Assembly: GCA_043817485.1 (NCBI GenBank) | Contig: JBDRGX010000092.1 | Location: forward strand, 1 to 32,798 | Origin: JBDRGX01 sp043817485 [NCBI: bacterium] | GTDB lineage: Bacteria > JBDRGX01 | Length of the DNA stretch: 32,798 nt | Direction of reading: 5' to 3' | Shown here: one piece after another, positions 1,874-31,866 of the stretch | Numbering within the stretch: the stretch's first letter is position 1 | Layout of the letters: each line of letters starts with the position of its first letter | Notes under the pieces: model-generated | Databases searched by the model: none | What the model saw: only the letters and a program-made list of their open reading frames with translations | Told to the model about the DNA's origin: nothing | Program-made: the position numbers and the translations under genes

Positions 1874-4315
1874 TTATTTTATTATCAAGGATTCTTCCTT
1901 CATTGTTATTTTATATTCTTTCTTTTTATCTGTAATGCTAATAGTTTGTATTTTAGGGGAGGCATAACTTGAATGTGTTATTTTAATTGTATGCATTCCA
2001 AAAGAAATTCCTTCTTTAACAACAATCCCTTGTCCTAAATATACATCATCAAGATATATATAAGCATTTTCTGGAGAAATTTTAAATATTATTTTGCCTT
2101 TAATTGGCATCAAATAAACTCTAAAAGCTTCTTTATCATTTTGTTTTAAAGAAATATCTTTTTTCGTATACATATCATAACCATATTTTTTTACAAAAAG
2201 AATATATTTTCCTGTTGGTACTTCAATTTCTTTTTGAGATGTAAGTAAATAAGTAATATTTGTATTTTCTGTAAAATTTCTTTCATCTGCAAGTTTTATT
2301 TCACAAGATGGAATTGTTTGAAAAGTGTCTTTATCATATACAGACACTTCTATTTTAGGAGAATATATATAAACTTTTTTTTCTTCTACCTTTTCTTCTT
2401 TTTTTTCTATTTTTTCTAATTTATTTAAAACAATATTTATATTTTGTTGTTCATCATTTTCTATGTAAATTTTTTTTATAAAAGGATGAAATTCTGGCTT
2501 ACTAATAAAAATTTCATAACTATTATCTGGAAATAAAGAATATTTAATAGGAGTTTGACCTATATTTTGACCATCTATTTTTACATCAGCATTTTCTGGT
2601 TTTGAAATAATATTGATATATTTACTTAAAATAATATTTACACTAAAAGTTTTGAGTTCATTTGAAATTATTTTAGTATGTTTTGTTTGATTTAAAAGTT
2701 TTACTGAACCATCTTCTTGAATTTCAATTTTACATTTATAAGAAACAAAATTAGGTCTTTCTACTTTTATTTCATTTATTCCAAAAGGCAAAGGAAAATT
2801 AAATAAAGAAGTATTTTCTAAATTTTCTTTAATACAACTAATTTTTGCTTTAAAAGAAGAAATACTAATATTTTTTCTAAGATGGGCTTCTATTAAAATA
2901 TTATTTTTATCTTTAACATTTATTATCTCTTCATAAATATTAAAAGGTGATTTACTTATTTTTATTGTATATTTACCAAATGTAATTTTTTCCAAAACAA
3001 ATGGTGTTATTCCCATTTCTTTATCATTTATAATAACTTTTGCTTGTGAAGGATAAGAATTTATTTTCAAAGCTGCTTTCAAAGATGATACTGAAGAAAC
3101 ATTTTCTTTTTTTGTTTTTTCTGAAATAATTGTTTTTACATTTTGATTATTTATCAATTTATAAACAATTATAGAAATTGTAATACATAAAATACTACAT
3201 AAAAATATAATTGTTAATAAAGATTTTTTAGGATACAGATTCGAGCCATTAATTAAAATTTCTTCTTTTTTTTCTTCCTCTTCTTTTTTTGTAACTTCAG
3301 ATTCATCTCCTTTATAAAAAACTTCTGTTTCCATTCCATCTATATCATTTTTTTCTAATGGAACTAACAACATTTCTTCTCTTGCTTCTTCTTTTAATTC
3401 AGCTTCAAAAGTTTTTTTTACAAAATCTGATAGATTGATAGAGGTTCTTACAAGATGATGTTCATGAAGAAATTTTACAATATCTTGCCACATTTGATAC
3501 GCATTTTGATATCTTTTATCAAGTGGTTTTTGAAGAGCTTTTAAAATTATTTTTTCAGCTTCATGAGAAATTTCTGAATTAAATTTTCTCGGTGAAATTA
3601 TTTTTCCTTCTTTTACTTTTTCAAGCATTAAAAATTCGCTATCACCTTCAAAAACTTTTCTACCAGTAAGCATTTCATAAATTATAATTCCTAAAGCATA
3701 TATATCAGTTCTTTTATCTACTAATTGTCCCATTGCTTGCTCTGGAGACATATAGCCAATTTTCCCTTTTAATAAACCAATAGTTGTTGTATGAATTTGA
3801 GAAGTAGCTCTCGCAATACCAAAATCACTTAATTTAACTTCACCTTCATAAGAAATTAAAATATTCGAAGGAGATACATCTCTATGAACAATTTCCATAT
3901 TTTGAAAATTTTTACTCTTTTTTTTATGAGCATAATCTAATGCACTACACATTTTTTCTGCAATAAAAAAAGCAATGTCTATTGGAATTGTTTTATTTTT
4001 AGCTTTTTCTTTTTTTAAAATTTCAGATAAATTTTTTCCATAAATATATTCCATTGCAATATAATAAGTATCTTCAATTTTTCCTAATTCATCTATATAA
4101 ATAATATTCGGATGTGAAAGATCAGCTGCAATTTTTGCTTCATCAATAAACATTTCAATAAAATCTTTATTATCACTTAAATGCCCTAATATTCTTTTTA
4201 TAACTACTAATTTTTCAAAACCTTCTATTCCCTTTTTTTTAGCTAAAAATATTTCAGCCATACCAGCTACTGCAATTTTTTTTATAATAAAATAATTTCC
4301 AAAAGTATTTTTCAT
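1874..4315 (-). CDS. Transmembrane Ser/Thr protein kinase with C-terminal PEGA repeats
   Basis: An 813-residue Hanks-type kinase. The cytoplasmic kinase domain covers about residues 8-285: VVIK with ATP-binding Lys40, catalytic loop HRDVSPSN at 144-151 with Asp146, DFG at 164-166, and SPE at 190-192 in place of APE. The glycine-rich loop is AVAGMAEIF, keeping only the last glycine, as in other 'GGMAE' kinases. An acidic linker (310-355) leads to one membrane helix at about 366-386. The rest should be outside the inner membrane and holds at least three PEGA-like beta modules (about 417-470, 568-620, 740-790), which are thought to bind surface carbohydrate or protein. AAAGG lies upstream of the ATG. 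It is cotranscribed with the UDP-sugar dehydrogenase, so an envelope-sensing role is plausible but inferred. Confidence 0.9.
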   Translation of the reverse strand: MKNTFGNYFIIKKIAVAGMAEIFLAKKKGIEGFEKLVVIKRILGHLSDNKDFIEMFIDEAKIAADLSHPNIIYIDELGKIEDTYYIAMEYIYGKNLSEILKKEKAKNKTIPIDIAFFIAEKMCSALDYAHKKKSKNFQNMEIVHRDVSPSNILISYEGEVKLSDFGIARATSQIHTTTIGLLKGKIGYMSPEQAMGQLVDKRTDIYALGIIIYEMLTGRKVFEGDSEFLMLEKVKEGKIISPRKFNSEISHEAEKIILKALQKPLDKRYQNAYQMWQDIVKFLHEHHLVRTSINLSDFVKKTFEAELKEEAREEMLLVPLEKNDIDGMETEVFYKGDESEVTKKEEEEKKEEILINGSNLYPKKSLLTIIFLCSILCITISIIVYKLINNQNVKTIISEKTKKENVSSVSSLKAALKINSYPSQAKVIINDKEMGITPFVLEKITFGKYTIKISKSPFNIYEEIINVKDKNNILIEAHLRKNISISSFKAKISCIKENLENTSLFNFPLPFGINEIKVERPNFVSYKCKIEIQEDGSVKLLNQTKHTKIISNELKTFSVNIILSKYINIISKPENADVKIDGQNIGQTPIKYSLFPDNSYEIFISKPEFHPFIKKIYIENDEQQNINIVLNKLEKIEKKEEKVEEKKVYIYSPKIEVSVYDKDTFQTIPSCEIKLADERNFTENTNITYLLTSQKEIEVPTGKYILFVKKYGYDMYTKKDISLKQNDKEAFRVYLMPIKGKIIFKISPENAYIYLDDVYLGQGIVVKEGISFGMHTIKITHSSYASPKIQTISITDKKKEYKITMKEESLIIK

Positions 4316-10108: not shown

Positions 10109-11155
10109 TTATTTTACTTGATTTATTAAAGAACAACAATATTCTGAAAAGACTGGTTTTAATTTTTGATTTTTTGCAAATTCTATTGTTCCTTCTGATG
10201 GATAGGCAATCCCATTAAACCCTATTTGTACTGCATATTTTTCCAATTCTTTGCTATAAATACCACCAGAATGTGCACAACCTAAAAGAATAGAAGTATT
10301 AAAAAACATTTTTCTTGCTTTCATAAAAAAATTTTTGACTTCTTTTAAATCTGGTAATTTAATATTTTCCATTGAAGTATTTAAAAAAGGAGAAATAATT
10401 ACTAAAACTAAAGAATTAATTTTATAACGACTAATTATTTCTAAAGCTTTTTCTTCTCCAAGCAATTTTCCAAAATGAAGCCCTATAATAATATGAGGAG
10501 ATACCTCAATTCCTCTTTCAACTAACAATTTCAATGATTTTTCATAATCATCAATAGATGCTTTCAAATGATACACTTCGTTAATAGTTTCATTTGAACC
10601 AATAATATCAATCATTGCTGAACTAATATTTGCTTGTTTTAAAGCATCTGCTAATTTTTCATCAACTAATCCAGTATGAACAACAATTTTTAAACCAAAT
10701 TCTTCATTTAATTTTTTCATTACTTTTGTATATTTTATTAAAGGAACAGCCCCATCTTTATTAGCACCACCACTTATAAGAAGACCAGTTCCTCCTTTTT
10801 GAAATAAATCATTGCCTATCTGATATAATTCTTCTGGAATATTTACTTCTTGCATTGTTTCTAAAATTTTCCCTTTACAATGTTCACAAGACAAAGCACA
10901 ATTTTTTCCTGTAATTGAAATACAAGAAAATAAAGGAATTTTGTGATTTGAAAATTCATCTGTTTCATATTTTTTAATACTTGGAGCAAAAAAATAAATT
11001 TGATTTTTTAACACAATTTTTTTCCTTATTTTCAATATTTTTATTTGAGAGTGCCAAGAATACCCCATCCTTTGAGACAGAAATGAATTAGCACAATAAT
11101 AATATATTTTTCTTGAGAGAAAATATCCCCAGCCATTTATGCGGAAAAAATTCAT
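10109..11155 (-). CDS. Radical SAM protein, LipS-type lipoyl synthase subunit (COG1856-like)
   Basis: A 348-residue radical SAM enzyme. The iron-sulfur motif is C86-ALS-C90-EH-C93, followed by GKILETM and SGGANKDGAVPL (about 115-135). A further Cys78, an LLGCAHSGGIYS motif near residues 291-302 and the C-terminal EYCCSL could hold an auxiliary cluster. These features match the 'biotin synthase homologue' group that includes one half of the two-protein lipoyl synthase LipS1/LipS2, which inserts sulfur at C6 and C8 of octanoyl-protein. The partner-type gene lies 17 bp upstream, which supports that reading. The ribosome site is weak (GGGA close to the ATG). I do not say which of S1 or S2 it is. 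Other radical SAM functions remain possible. Confidence 0.7.
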   Translation of the reverse strand: MNFFRINGWGYFLSRKIYYYCANSFLSQRMGYSWHSQIKILKIRKKIVLKNQIYFFAPSIKKYETDEFSNHKIPLFSCISITGKNCALSCEHCKGKILETMQEVNIPEELYQIGNDLFQKGGTGLLISGGANKDGAVPLIKYTKVMKKLNEEFGLKIVVHTGLVDEKLADALKQANISSAMIDIIGSNETINEVYHLKASIDDYEKSLKLLVERGIEVSPHIIIGLHFGKLLGEEKALEIISRYKINSLVLVIISPFLNTSMENIKLPDLKEVKNFFMKARKMFFNTSILLGCAHSGGIYSKELEKYAVQIGFNGIAYPSEGTIEFAKNQKLKPVFSEYCCSLINQVK

Positions 11156-11172
11156 TTTCCCAAAGCATTAAC

Positions 11173-12201
11173 TTACAAAAATTCTTTTTTGATTTTTTCT
11201 ATATCTTCTTTATCTGGTAAAAATGGAAAATTTCTAATATTGTCTGGCAAAGAATTCGCATAAGGTCTATTACAAACTAATTTTTCATTTTTCCCTGAAC
11301 AACCACTTGTTAGAAATGGATTACCCTCTTGAATAACTTTTTCTAAAAATTTTTCATCTAAACCAAAATTCAATACTTCATCCTTCGAATTAAAAAAAAT
11401 TTGTTCTGCTTTTATTAAATTTTCATCAATTAAAAATTTTCCTAATTGAATTCTTCTATAAGAACTTATTAAAGGAGCTTTTTTATTTTCTAATTTTGAC
11501 CCCATTTCTGGAAAAAAAGAAAAAAGATGCGTATTACTACCATTATTGTGAATTTTTTGAATAACATCAAGCATTTGTTTTTCTGTTTCACCCAATCCAA
11601 CTATTAAATGAATACCAATTTGTTCAGGTCTAAAAATTTTTTGTGCTTGTGTTATAATTTCCCAGTATTTTTCCCATTTATGAGGATTTTTCCCTCTTAT
11701 TTCTTCAAAAATTTGCTCTGTTGCACAATCTAACGCTATTCCTATTTTATCTACACCAACATTTTTAAATTCTAATAAATCTTTTTTTTCAATAATCGTA
11801 GGTGAAATCAAAAAAGATAAAGGTAATGATATTTTTTCTTTTATTTTATAACTTATTTTAATAATATCTGATATAGATTCTTTTCGAGTAACCATTGAAA
11901 TACAAATTCTTTTAATATCATCACAATTTTTTGTTTTTTCAATAATTTCATCTAATTTATAAATTGGCCAATCTACTCTAATAAAACTTTTATTATTACC
12001 AATTCTTTTTGAAGATAACCCACAATAAGAACAATTTGCTATACATCCATTTTCATAAATAAGTAATAAATTTAAGCAATGAGATTTAGCATTACGATAA
12101 AATTTTCCTTGTTTTAACCCTAAAGTTAAAGCAGAGGCCAAACTCATTTTTAAATATTCTGGGCTTTGTTTAATAAAACTTGGTTTAATTTGTTCTAACA
12201 T
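11173..12201 (-). CDS. Radical SAM protein, LipS-type lipoyl synthase partner (COG2516-like)
   Basis: A 342-residue radical SAM enzyme with C53-IAN-C57-SY-C60 and a biotin synthase-like core (IGIALDCATEQIFEEIRG near 153-170; HLIVGLGETEKQM near 198-210). The C-terminus reads FLTSGCSGKNEKLVCNRPY with Cys301 and Cys310; with Cys42 these could bind an auxiliary [4Fe-4S] cluster serving as the sulfur source. This C-terminal 'TSGC...CNRP' pattern fits LipS1/LipS2-family proteins. Its ATG shares one base with the TAA of the upstream pabB/trpE-type gene (TAATG), so translation is coupled. No lplA/lipB-type ligase or LipA gene is present in the window. Confidence 0.7.
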   Translation of the reverse strand: MLEQIKPSFIKQSPEYLKMSLASALTLGLKQGKFYRNAKSHCLNLLLIYENGCIANCSYCGLSSKRIGNNKSFIRVDWPIYKLDEIIEKTKNCDDIKRICISMVTRKESISDIIKISYKIKEKISLPLSFLISPTIIEKKDLLEFKNVGVDKIGIALDCATEQIFEEIRGKNPHKWEKYWEIITQAQKIFRPEQIGIHLIVGLGETEKQMLDVIQKIHNNGSNTHLFSFFPEMGSKLENKKAPLISSYRRIQLGKFLIDENLIKAEQIFFNSKDEVLNFGLDEKFLEKVIQEGNPFLTSGCSGKNEKLVCNRPYANSLPDNIRNFPFLPDKEDIEKIKKEFL

Positions 12202-19784: not shown

Positions 19785-22028
19785 TTAAAAAAATTGTTTA
19801 GATAATTTTTTTGCCATATTTAATTCTTCTTCTTTTTTTTCTATCTTTCCATCTATTTTTGCCAATAATATTTCATTAAGAATTTTTCCTAATAAAGGAG
19901 ATTCTTTAAAGCCATAACTAATTAAACTTTTTCCATTTATTTCTAATTTCATTTCTACTAAATGAGTAAAATAAAAAGAGATTCTTTTTTTGACTCTTAC
20001 TTTTTTACTTTTAGTCATCATATAAAGAAGTGTTTCATTCGGTAAATTTGTTAAATTTTTATAAATTTCACTTTTTTTTATTTTTTGAATTGAAAGTTTT
20101 TGAATTATTTCATCTGTTAATTTTTTAGTAATTGATATCACTACACAAGCATATTTACTCAATTTTAATCTTTTTGTTAAAAATATTGCTTCTTCTTCGT
20201 TTAATTTATCAATTAAAATAAGAAAATAAAAAAGATATTTTTCTACTACTTTTTTTAAAAATAAAAGATCAAACCAATTTAAAATTTGTTTTGCTCGAAC
20301 AAAAATTTCTCTCAAATAATTATCTAAATGAATTTTCGGATGAATAAATTTTAGTATTCCAAAATAATTTAATTTTTCAATAGGTTTTAAAGGGTCTAAT
20401 TCTTTTAACATATAAAACAATTCTTCTCTAAATCTCTCTATAGTTATTTTTTCTAACATTTTTGACTTAACAGCATTTTCTAATAATATAGCACTATGAG
20501 ATTCTATTTTAAATTTATATCTTTGCTCAAACCTAATTGCTCTCATAATTCGAGTAGGATCATCTATAAAACTAAAATTATGTAAAACTTTAATAATGCC
20601 ATTTTTTAAATCTCTTTGTCCTTGAAAAAAATCATACAAATCTCCAAATGAATTTTTATTTAAACTAATAGCTAACCCATTGATAGTAAAATCTCTTCGA
20701 TGAAGATCATGTTTAATCAAACTTTTTTCTACTGAAGGAAGAGCTCCAGGATGTTTATAAGATTCTTTTCGAGCAGAAGTAACATCAATTTTAATTTTAT
20801 TAGGTAAAAAAATAATGGCTGTATGAAATCGTGTATGAATTTTAAGATGTCCTCCTTTTTTTTGAACAAATTTTTTAGCAAATTCTATTCCATCGCCTTC
20901 TACAACAATATCAATATCTGTATTAGGAATAGACAATAAAACATCTCTTACAAAACCTCCTACTGCAAATACAAAATAATTAAATTCATCTGCTACTTTT
21001 CCTATTTCTTGAAGAAGTCCGTAAATATGCTTATAGGATCTACCTTGAATGATTTTTTTTAAATTTTTATGCTCTACTATTTCTTCTTTTTTTTCTAAAA
21101 TAATTTTTTTATTTTTAAGATGTTTTTTTAAAATTTGTAATAATTTTTTTTCTGTTTCTTCTAAAGATAAGTTTTTTACAACGGCTGAAGCAGCTGTGGG
21201 ATGTCCTCCCCCATGAAATTCTTGAAGGATAATATCTACATTAACTAAATCTATTCTACTTCGAGCAATAATTGAAATTCTATCATTTTTTTCAAAAAGA
21301 GTGAACAAACAATCTATTTTTTCTATATCTCGTAATTCGTGAGTTAAACTTGACAAATCTCTTTTATATTCATCTGCTTTTACAGAAGAAATAATGATTT
21401 TAACTCCATTAACAAAATATTCTTTTTGAGATTGAATCAATTTATTTATCAAAACAATTTGATCAACGCTAAGTTTTTCTTGAATAAAATCGGGAATAAT
21501 CTCTAAACGGGCTTTTTGGGTTAAAAGATACGAACACATAGCAATATCTCTTAAAGTAGTAGTTTTATAAGTAAGAAAACCAGTATCTTCATAAATACCA
21601 AAAGCAAATAAAGTTGCTTCTTCTGAAGTAAGCAAAATACCTTTTTTCTTTATAATTTCAGTTATAATAGTAACAGTTGCACCAAGTTCTTCTACATAAT
21701 TTTTTTCTCCAATTAAATCTCCAAAATGAGAAGAATGGTGATCAAAAATATGAAGTTTTAAATGAGGATTATCTAATATTTCTTCAAATTTTCCTATTCG
21801 AGTTTGAACTCTTGTGTCAACAATAATTAAACGAGTAATTTTTTCTAATTCAATATTTTTTATTTTAAAAAATTCATAGGAAAGTTTATGTTTTTCTAAA
21901 AAAATTCTTACATTTTCTTCGCAAGAACCTGGAAGAACAAGTTTAGCAAGAGGATATAATTTTTTAGCGGCAATCATCGATGCTATAGCATCAAAATCTG
22001 CATGAGTATGAGTAATTATAACATCCAA
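19785..22028 (-). CDS. DHH phosphoesterase fused to CCA-adding/poly(A) polymerase-type nucleotidyltransferase
   Basis: A 747-residue fusion. Residues 1-300 are a DHH/DHHA1 phosphoesterase: THTHADFDAIASM at 6-18, IIVDTR at 68-73, DHHSS at 96-100 and GGGHPTAASAV at 273-283. From about 335 a class II tRNA nucleotidyltransferase follows: AVGGFVRD (355-362), DIDIVVEGDG (371-380), HRRDFTINGLA and RIMRAIRFEQRYKF. The same order is known in several phyla, usually with two CBS domains between; here only about 25 linker residues are present. It should repair or build tRNA 3' CCA ends, although both tRNAs here encode CCA. The start is TTG with GGAG seven bases upstream; no in-frame ATG fits. Confidence 0.88.
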   Translation of the reverse strand: MDVIITHTHADFDAIASMIAAKKLYPLAKLVLPGSCEENVRIFLEKHKLSYEFFKIKNIELEKITRLIIVDTRVQTRIGKFEEILDNPHLKLHIFDHHSSHFGDLIGEKNYVEELGATVTIITEIIKKKGILLTSEEATLFAFGIYEDTGFLTYKTTTLRDIAMCSYLLTQKARLEIIPDFIQEKLSVDQIVLINKLIQSQKEYFVNGVKIIISSVKADEYKRDLSSLTHELRDIEKIDCLFTLFEKNDRISIIARSRIDLVNVDIILQEFHGGGHPTAASAVVKNLSLEETEKKLLQILKKHLKNKKIILEKKEEIVEHKNLKKIIQGRSYKHIYGLLQEIGKVADEFNYFVFAVGGFVRDVLLSIPNTDIDIVVEGDGIEFAKKFVQKKGGHLKIHTRFHTAIIFLPNKIKIDVTSARKESYKHPGALPSVEKSLIKHDLHRRDFTINGLAISLNKNSFGDLYDFFQGQRDLKNGIIKVLHNFSFIDDPTRIMRAIRFEQRYKFKIESHSAILLENAVKSKMLEKITIERFREELFYMLKELDPLKPIEKLNYFGILKFIHPKIHLDNYLREIFVRAKQILNWFDLLFLKKVVEKYLFYFLILIDKLNEEEAIFLTKRLKLSKYACVVISITKKLTDEIIQKLSIQKIKKSEIYKNLTNLPNETLLYMMTKSKKVRVKKRISFYFTHLVEMKLEINGKSLISYGFKESPLLGKILNEILLAKIDGKIEKKEEELNMAKKLSKQFF

Positions 22029-27679: not shown

Positions 27680-27723
27680 TTTGTAATTTGCAACATTTTA
27701 TTTCTGATTGCAATTTGGTATTA
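27680..27723. repeat. Dispersed AATTTGCAA/GATTGCAATTTGGTATTA repeat
   Basis: Closely similar to 14443-14487 and, inverted, to 32297-32327. It ends exactly over the stop codon of the Kelch-pseudopilin gene, which may therefore have been modified at its 3' end. The rest of 27617-27720, between convergent genes, shows no clear terminator. Confidence 0.6.
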
Positions 27724-29364
27724 ATTACTCGTAGAAACATTTGTCAAAACATCCATTTTTTGAAACTTTTTTCCTAAAACATCATATGGGTCAGTATCTA
27801 ATCCTCTTTTTTCCCATTTTTTAACTTTGAAATTTATTTGAATAGTTTTTTTAGTCCCAGCATTATAAACTTGCATGCTATCTAAATAATTACTGTCTTG
27901 TCTTCCACCAATTACATAAATTTTCTTTTGATAAGAAACAACTGCACCACCTTCCCGAGGAATAAATTCAGTATTAAATGCTTTTACCCATTTGCTATCC
28001 CAGACAAAAGTACTATTAATTTTTTCTTGATAAAAATGAAAAATCTCCATTTGATTAGAATAATCTTTCCCTCCTAAAACATATAATTTATCATTTATAT
28101 TTATAGCTCCATAATTCCATCTCGCAATATTATTTGAAACTTGTGTAATTATATCACCTCTCCACAAAGTATCACTTGTAGGCCAATTAGTACTTTCTTG
28201 AGGTCCCCAAGTATCTAAAGCAGAATTAAATTTAGGTTTATAAAATTGAATCTTCGAAAAAGATGTACCATTTTTATTTCCACTAAAAATAACTGCATAA
28301 TTATAAATTTTTACTGCATTAATTTGAGAAACATTATTATCAAAAGACATTGGAAGTCCTTCTACTAACCAACCATTAGCTATTGGATCATATATTTGAG
28401 TAGATCCATCATTATTTCCTCCAAAAATATACATTCGAAAAACATTTCTTTGAGTAATTGGATCAATTACTTCTAAATAACCACAACCTGCGCCCTTAAC
28501 TGCTTTAGGCAAAGGTCGTAAATGTCCACCATCATGATTAGTATCTGTGTGCCAAACATTTGTAGAAGGATTATAAAACATAACTATATTTGTAGCAGTA
28601 GTTCCATCTGTTGTTCCACCAAAAAAATAAATACGTCCACCATGAACACACGAAGCCATATCATATAAAGATATTGGCATAGGATTTAATAAATCTGCAG
28701 CACCTACAATAGTATCAAACCAAGTATTAGTTGCAATATCATATCTTCTTACTTCATTTCTTGCCCCACTTGAATCTAATCCTCCAAAACAATAAATTTG
28801 ACCTGCATTTTCATAAACACTCATAAAAGCTCTTTGAAAAGGCAAATTCGTTAAATCAACCCATTTTATTCTATTTTGTGCAACAACTTTATTTTCTTCG
28901 GGAATTGGTACTATTGTAAAAGCATCTATATCATTGTCTAAATCATCTTTGCTTTTAGTTATTCCATCAGCAATTTGTACGAAATAATTAGGATTATTCA
29001 AATAATCTGGTTGATAATATAAAAGATATTCCGTCGTGTTAAGAATATTTGCATCGGGATAAAGATAATAACGAAATTTATCTATCATAATTTCATCTCC
29101 AGAAACACTATTAATTCCATTTTCTTTAATTTCAACAGATACAGGAAATACTGTTTCTATTTTTCTAATCAACCCTTTAACTAAACCTTCACTTTTAATT
29201 ATGGACTCTACTCTAAGTTCTGTTTCTTTTGTATATTTTTGAGAAACTTCATATAATCCAAAAATTACTACACAAAGAATAGATAAACATCCCATTGCTA
29301 TTAACATTTCTATAATAGTAAAGCCCGTGTTATTTTTAATTTTCATAGTTTTCGTAGTTTTCAT
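27721..29364 (-). CDS. Minor pseudopilin (PilW-like) with an internal Kelch beta-propeller
   Basis: 547 residues. A class III signal NNTG/FTIIEMLIAMG has cleavage after Gly14 and Glu at +5 (Glu19), then the hydrophobic pilin helix to about 41. Residues 45-165 look like the globular start of a PilW-type minor pilin. About residues 188-490 contain six Kelch-like units: GQIYCFGG, GRIYFFGG, RMYIFGG, a degenerate YAVIFSGN, KLYVLGG and KIYVIGG, several followed by a Y-D/N-P...W motif. The tail (about 505-547; TIQINFKVKKW) again looks like closing pilin strands, so the propeller appears inserted into the pilin fold. The ATG at 29364 has GAGG 9 nt upstream. It follows the smaller pseudopilin gene by 47 bp. 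An adhesive or scaffold role at a pilus or secretion pseudopilus tip is inferred. Confidence 0.85.
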   Translation of the reverse strand: MKTTKTMKIKNNTGFTIIEMLIAMGCLSILCVVIFGLYEVSQKYTKETELRVESIIKSEGLVKGLIRKIETVFPVSVEIKENGINSVSGDEIMIDKFRYYLYPDANILNTTEYLLYYQPDYLNNPNYFVQIADGITKSKDDLDNDIDAFTIVPIPEENKVVAQNRIKWVDLTNLPFQRAFMSVYENAGQIYCFGGLDSSGARNEVRRYDIATNTWFDTIVGAADLLNPMPISLYDMASCVHGGRIYFFGGTTDGTTATNIVMFYNPSTNVWHTDTNHDGGHLRPLPKAVKGAGCGYLEVIDPITQRNVFRMYIFGGNNDGSTQIYDPIANGWLVEGLPMSFDNNVSQINAVKIYNYAVIFSGNKNGTSFSKIQFYKPKFNSALDTWGPQESTNWPTSDTLWRGDIITQVSNNIARWNYGAININDKLYVLGGKDYSNQMEIFHFYQEKINSTFVWDSKWVKAFNTEFIPREGGAVVSYQKKIYVIGGRQDSNYLDSMQVYNAGTKKTIQINFKVKKWEKRGLDTDPYDVLGKKFQKMDVLTNVSTSN

Positions 29365-29411
29365 AAAACATATCCTCATTTTTATTAAAAACTCAATAAT
29401 TTATATATAGG

Positions 29412-31866
<2,455 letters not shown>

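Follow-up and report, generated by a model that had tools for sequence, protein, structure and literature searches.

The window analyzed here, that is, the whole stretch of 32,798 nucleotides, carries a pair of minor prepilin genes located behind gyrB on the minus strand. The second gene of the pair encodes P0001, a protein in which a Kelch propeller is combined with a type IV pilin start and is probably enclosed by the pilin head. The genes and the parts of P0001 are as follows.

29923..31824, minus strand: gyrB, for which GyrB relatives were found; listed as context
29412..29930, minus strand: PilV/GspI-like minor prepilin of 172 amino acids, 47 bases upstream of the Kelch pilin (profile score 52.2 bits V-like)
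27721..29364, minus strand: Kelch-bearing minor prepilin P0001, 547 amino acids plus stop (translation, Pfam)
29323..29364, minus strand: class III leader peptide of P0001, residues 1-14, ending at Gly14 (sequence; N_methyl 24.7 bits)
29194..29322, minus strand: predicted long N-terminal helix of the pilin, residues 15-57, including Glu19 (mature position 5) (model and W-like profile)
28870..29193, minus strand: residues 58-165, putatively the beginning of the pilin head (the profile match of the N-part extends to residue 100)
27853..28869, minus strand: six-bladed Kelch beta-propeller, residues 166-504 (Pfam, alignments, model, structure comparison)
27724..27852, minus strand: C-terminal tail, residues 505-547, interpreted as the final strands of the pilin head (profile test; outside the propeller)

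The interval 27721-29364, which the first-pass annotation had described without giving a strand, is an intact frame of 547 residues on the minus strand. It starts with an ATG at 29364 and ends with a stop codon at 27721-27723; a GAGGA sequence lies 8 bases ahead of the start (29373-29377), and further in-frame ATG codons occur at 29379 and 29346. The plus strand contains 22 stops over the same interval. Given the dinucleotide composition of the window, 547 codons in a row without a stop would be expected with a probability of about 10^-18, so the frame is not due to chance. Moreover, the GC content of third codon positions is similar in the three parts of the gene (0.133, 0.115 and 0.163) and thus gives no sign of an assembly join. 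The frameshift or assembly join between two genes, which the first-pass annotation had named as a refutation of its interpretation, is not indicated by this single stop-free frame of even third-position GC.

The beginning of P0001 has the features of a class III prepilin, as claimed before. The Pfam model N_methyl matches residues 10-34 with 24.7 bits, above its cut-off of 21.2; cleavage is predicted from the sequence between Gly14 and Phe15, and the mature protein would start with FTIIE, with glutamate at position +5. In the structural model described below, a helix spans residues 17-57 with low to middling confidence. The pilin class was assessed with profiles built in this work from 53 W-like and 44 V-like pilins of fetched loci, whose members were selected by means of seed profiles assembled by eye from 19 and 13 sequences. 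The W-like profile matches residues 7-100, and residues 1-164 score 51.6 bits as W-like versus 30.0 bits as V-like. Some members of the W-like profile were found with the joined pilin parts of the window protein as the query, so this profile favors the N-part of P0001. The PilW-like character of the N-terminus, proposed in the first-pass annotation, thus stands on home-built profiles, whereas the curated models do not reach it: no PilW or GspJ model matched P0001 at its cut-off, no PilW model was listed among the matches, and the gspJ model gave 13 bits on the joined pilin parts versus a cut-off of 64.85. The curated models of PilV, GspI and GspJ likewise all stayed below their cut-offs. P0001 is accordingly assigned, by profile, to a putative PilW/GspJ class, within which these profiles do not separate W from J (or V from I). 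By its Pfam matches, it joins an N-terminal prepilin motif to a domain foreign to pilus biology, which is a mark of modular pilins (PMC8179133).

The small pseudopilin reported just upstream is also present. The product of 29412-29930 scores 52.2 bits as V-like versus 30.5 as W-like; its N_methyl match (18.5 bits) is under the cut-off of 21.2. The start of this gene shares 8 bases with the end of gyrB, which may be the first gene of the transcription unit. The order of a V-like followed by a W-like pilin was also seen in many ordinary pilus loci that were read. Downstream of the Kelch pilin lie two convergent glycosyltransferase genes. Promoter-like sites were about as frequent as expected (18 found, 15.7 expected, sd 3.6), and the search for a terminator found none. 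Besides the pilin pair, no further pilus genes and no secretion or DNA-uptake genes were recognised in the window. Its GyrB is about 64% identical at best to genome contigs among the matches listed (596 stretches), and 67% identical over 243 residues to a short contig of a viral collection; a tree of GyrB did not give the window a position.

The middle of P0001 is a Kelch domain. Kelch_6 of Pfam matches five stretches (E 3.9e-27), Kelch-type families match stretches between residues 163 and 505, and alignment with free-standing Kelch proteins gives six Kelch units from W168 to about Y500, the same span that the free proteins use. The six Kelch-like units noticed in the first-pass annotation are thus borne out. 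At E up to 1, the Pfam matches of P0001 included no PilY1 family, in a collection that presumably includes a PilY1 model. An AlphaFold2 model was computed from an alignment of 20 Kelch rows from viral contigs that contained no pilin rows, and it reached a mean pLDDT of 61.7; a single-sequence prediction (pLDDT 33.9) was of no use. Means over ten residues are mostly 74-96 over residues 171-330 and 461-500, and lower within the propeller over 331-410 (37-63) and 441-460 (53).

With this model, Foldseek found 552 PDB chains at E <=0.001, the best 50 of which were nearly all Kelch domains. The best match in VIA-align was the Kelch domain of LZTR1 (Z 31.5, 287 residues, 2.7 A, model residues 163-503); Keap1 scored 27.8 over residues 187-504. 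Almost every row of this comparison places the tail, residues 505-547, beyond the propeller. Since closed Kelch matches cover residues 163-503, the propeller appears complete without the last 43 residues. In the model, residues 166-504 are a closed six-bladed Kelch propeller with repeated GG and W motifs, in which the blades at about 331-410 are of low confidence; this is the closed propeller that the first-pass annotation had proposed to look for by structure prediction.

The question of nesting depends on the tail. When the two outer parts of P0001 (1-164 and 504-547) are joined, they align to positions 2-162 of the 181 positions of the W-like profile and score 56.4 bits, compared with 51.6 for the N-part alone. 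With the 53-member profile, only 8 of 1000 shuffled tails reach the score of the real tail, and none of 103 natural C-termini does (0 of 24 from the window, 0 of 79 from other frames). In a first test with the 19-member profile, the joined parts scored 47.0 bits and 5 of 300 shuffles were as high, whereas the tail on its own did not stand out from shuffles, 163 of 290 of which were as high. Although W-like members had been recruited with the joined parts, the tail was not the basis of their recruitment, because the listed matches ended by position 119. In the model, whose alignment was free of pilin rows, most of residues 48-164 and 505-547 has a pLDDT below 50; PilW-like rows were sought in viral contigs, with 0 relatives among 94 stretches. 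Set beside three other pilins (L132, L139 and L140), the tail may be read as the last two strands of the head.

The beta-rich, pilin-like tail suggested earlier is supported in the sense that the joined parts beat 992 of 1000 shuffles and all 103 natural tails, and the tail taken alone in the first test gave no such support. There is moderate statistical support for the tail being the end of the pilin head, and nesting of the propeller within that head is probable but not proven. As a whole, the view of P0001 as a propeller nested in a minor pseudopilin is partly supported, by the PilW-like start, the complete six-bladed propeller, the PilV-like pilin upstream, the tail statistics and an independent, clearly nested Kelch-PilV in Omnitrophota (see below).

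Relatives of P0001 were sought widely. None was confirmed in viral contigs, and plasmids gave no match at E 1e-3. Genomes were searched in sets of 20, 147, 39, 145, 17, 124, 82, 348, 296 and 80, some genomes being counted twice; in the searches of 348 and 296 genomes, up to 4 candidates were scored per genome. Among the matches listed from these sets, none united the pilin part of P0001 with its Kelch part. Thus, the survey proposed in the first-pass annotation yielded no relative with the same insertion point; the query was insensitive, as it did not pick up a Kelch-bearing PilV-like pilin of Omnitrophota in one of the searched genomes (G020).

This second Kelch pilin, P0002, was reached by chance through a pilin query. 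It has a prepilin motif and six Kelch units, and without the propeller it scores 109.8 bits as V-like versus 28.6 as W-like. A survey of 384 Omnitrophota genomes, in which up to 4 candidates per genome were scored and 30 loci among the matches listed were fetched, showed such a Kelch-PilV, with both pilin ends and a propeller between them, in at least 4 genomes (G020, G1388, G1224 and G1440). The 31 frames examined comprise 4 with N-part, Kelch and C-part, 18 with both pilin ends and no Kelch, 5 with the N-part only and 4 with Kelch only. In 12 of the 18 empty frames, namely those whose N match reaches at least position 87 of P0002, at most 14 residues precede the C match, compared with about 300 in P0002, which places the Omnitrophota propeller in a loop. 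Judged from these alignments, it is clearly nested in the pilin head. In a tree of the pilin parts, based on an alignment of the pilin ends of the 4 Kelch proteins and 14 of the 18 empty ones, the four Kelch-PilV proteins form one group with 98/96 support. N_methyl gives 22.1 bits for P0002 (cut-off 21.2) and 20.0 bits, under the cut-off, for the L248 protein; for L200 and L247, where most of the leader is trimmed off, there is no match at E <=0.01, and their starts read as prepilin signals.

The genes around these pilins belong to filament machines. In G020, the Kelch-PilV gene is flanked by a T2SS-F platform gene on one side and a W-like pilin gene on the other, and after the latter Pfam recognises PilO, a T2SSB-like protein (27.9 bits, cut-off 28.4), a secretin and PilM; PilN-like and PilX-like genes have no Pfam match and were named by place and length. 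By reading, G1388 has the same gene row after its Kelch pilin, while in G1224 and G1440 a T2SS-E ATPase and T2SS-F precede the Kelch pilin and a W-like pilin follows it (Pfam). As all four occur among pilus or type II secretion genes, the Kelch pilins appear to be part of filament machines in Omnitrophota.

P0001 and the Omnitrophota Kelch-PilV proteins share a prepilin start and a six-unit Kelch propeller in the head, the nesting in P0001 being probable. They differ in pilin class, P0001 being of the PilW class and its counterparts of the PilV class; the latter also have a Kelch subtype of their own (DVWYSSDG...W) and a pilus gene cluster. Since P0001 is W-like and the Omnitrophota proteins are V-like, insertion on at least two occasions is the simplest reading. 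The failure of the P0001 query to find the propeller of P0002 in the searches of G020 supports separate insertions as well. In other words, a propeller has probably entered pilins at least twice, as far as these comparisons indicate; its exchange between pilin classes is conceivable.

Other candidates were considered. In a motif check, 71 Kelch frames had at least 3 motifs, and a prepilin-like motif lay ahead of them in 2 (L089 and L154). The former is a false alarm, as its motif lies within the repeats; the latter is genuine. The viral-contig frame L382 was rejected because its start reads as protease-like, and two viral-contig relatives of P0002 (L229 and L230) have Kelch units without a pilin start.

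Taken together, P0001 is best read, with a probability of roughly two in three, as a modular minor pilin of the PilW/GspJ class that carries a Kelch propeller in a loop of its head and presents it at the tip as a binding head. The six-bladed propeller would be inserted ahead of the last one or two strands of the head. Once cleaved by prepilin peptidase behind Gly14, P0001 would be held in the membrane by its helix and would join the PilV/GspI-like partner from the upstream gene in a minor-pilin complex that initiates and caps a type IV filament. The propeller would be displayed at the pilus tip, as its roughly 340 residues look too bulky for packing along the shaft, and one of its faces may bind a ligand such as a surface polymer, a protein or a mineral. 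P0001 would thus fulfil by itself, in a single chain, the role of PilY1, which is a tip protein separate from the pilins. Processing, partner joining and tip display are proposed from the known behavior of minor pilins.

Several other explanations have to be weighed against this modular tip pilin. That P0001 is an artefact, made of two genes fused by a frameshift or an assembly error, might be suspected because a single copy of exactly this gene was seen; the uninterrupted, statistically improbable frame, the even third-position GC across both joints, and the similar make-up on four separate contigs of Omnitrophota genomes leave this explanation close to refuted. A plain end-to-end fusion, in which a short pilin stalk is followed by a Kelch propeller and then by 43 unrelated residues, with nothing nested, would agree with the loose tail of the model, with the smaller-profile test of the tail alone, and with PilB and PilC, published modular pilins whose additional module sits at the C-terminus (PMC8179133, PMC9934059). 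It is rather improbable, since it conflicts with the results of shuffling and natural tails under the 53-member W-like profile and with the clear nesting of the Omnitrophota counterpart; additionally, an N-part alone would presumably be without the last strands of a pilin head.

The role of the propeller can also be seen differently. P0001 could be a pseudopilus tip subunit of a T2SS-like secretion or DNA-uptake system, with the propeller serving as a substrate receptor instead of an adhesin. The profiles used leave GspJ/GspI-like proteins inseparable from PilW/PilV, the G020 cluster combines T2SS-F, a secretin and the sub-cut-off T2SSB-like protein with PilM and PilO, and ComZ has been proposed as a competence DNA receptor (PMC6561018). 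Against this stands a window without recognised secretion or DNA-uptake genes, and an orphan pair beside gyrB suits either role; a receptor of this kind is unlikely on balance, yet it is the strongest of the alternatives. Far less credible is a propeller that acts as an enzyme, such as a sialic-acid epimerase or a galactose-oxidase-like protein, held at the cell surface by the pilin. Weak matches to N-acetylneuraminate epimerase (NANM, 29.8 bits) and to a permuted mutarotase family (48.2 bits) point in this direction, but the curated cut-offs are far higher (45 and 243.2, respectively), and the top structural matches come from Kelch domains whose structures were determined together with protein partners; the fold alone gives no function.

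Among known systems, ComZ of Thermus thermophilus may be regarded, by analogy, as the nearest worked example for the proposed tip pilin. In ComZ, a beta-solenoid is inserted between the last two pilin strands, a tip position is argued from packing, and the partner pilin that it binds comes from the adjacent gene (PMC6561018). P0001 resembles it in an adjoining pilin gene for a putative partner and, probably, in a large beta-rich domain within the head sheet; it differs in the inserted fold, a Kelch propeller, and in the site, apparently before the last two strands instead of between them. Also, ComZ was missed as a pilin by PilFind (PMC6561018), whereas the prepilin motif of P0001 is clear. 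GspK, the tip pseudopilin of the T2SS, bears an extra domain inside the pilin sheet and is proposed to form the tip with I and J (PMC8179133, PMC6561018); its insert is helical and at another site, while P0001 belongs to the putative W/J class and has a beta-propeller.

Modular type IV pilins comprise more than 1,200 proteins in 264 make-ups (PMC8179133). In PilB and PilC of Streptococcus sanguinis, the modules hang C-terminally by a short loop (PMC8179133, PMC9934059). Like P0001, they unite a pilin module with a domain that does not belong to pilus biology, and this domain is probably placed at the tip and used for binding, but the propeller of P0001 is probably internal. Published modular pilins point to binding as the common function (PMC8179133, PMC9934059, PMC10191384). 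PilY1/PilC places a beta-propeller at the pilus tip on a minor-pilin complex; PilY1 is a separate, non-pilin chain with a propeller of family IPR008707 (PMC8179133), unlike the Kelch propeller that is part of the pilin in P0001.

Among the titles and abstract openings covered, no description of a Kelch pilin was found. Kelch is unnamed in the main text of PMC8179133, whose data set of 264 make-ups may hold Kelch entries, and in the available part of PMC10580974 the Kelch and pilin genes are separate. As modular pilins occur in so many make-ups and inserted domains exist in ComZ and GspK, P0001 is a variant of an existing theme; the new element seems to be that a propeller is nested in the pilin head, and this in two pilin classes. 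Grafted modules are one published answer to the question of how simple pilus filaments come to serve so many functions. From the occurrence of the propeller in two classes, it would seem that whole domains can be inserted into the tip-forming W and V subunits and that propellers are suited to the tip. Kelch-in-pilin hybrids may therefore represent a recurring way to place a binding head on the pilus tip. A broader idea, tentative and at somewhat less than even odds, is that closed propellers were inserted at least twice, into PilW-type and PilV-type pilins, each time putting a PilY1-like head within the priming complex and so making a PilY1-free tip adhesin across poorly known phyla. P0001 is also a compact system, in which tip presentation could be tested with one or two genes, compared with a set of minor pilins plus PilY1.

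Some minor observations were made along the way. A 332-residue pilin frame (L161) reads as V-like with a long middle and adjoins a W-like pilin; by sequence, it may be another modular pilin. PilV-like pilins of Omnitrophota (L198:8696-10066 and relatives) share a conserved C-terminal stretch, GEDxNLNGxLDAGEDxNGNGxLDSP, which we take to resemble a calcium-binding DxNxDG loop. Two genomes of the phylum of G006 gave ten Kelch matches each, and they contain open frames of 4494 and 4562 residues (G846:C51 and G748:C15; L178 and L179). The GC content of the window is about 20-32%. At 10109-12201 it encodes two adjoining radical SAM proteins (Pfam), presumably similar to the LipS1/LipS2 lipoate synthase pair; at 19785-22028, one 747-residue protein in which a DHH phosphoesterase is fused to a poly(A) polymerase/CCA-adding head; and at 1874-4315, an 813-residue serine/threonine kinase with PEGA domains.
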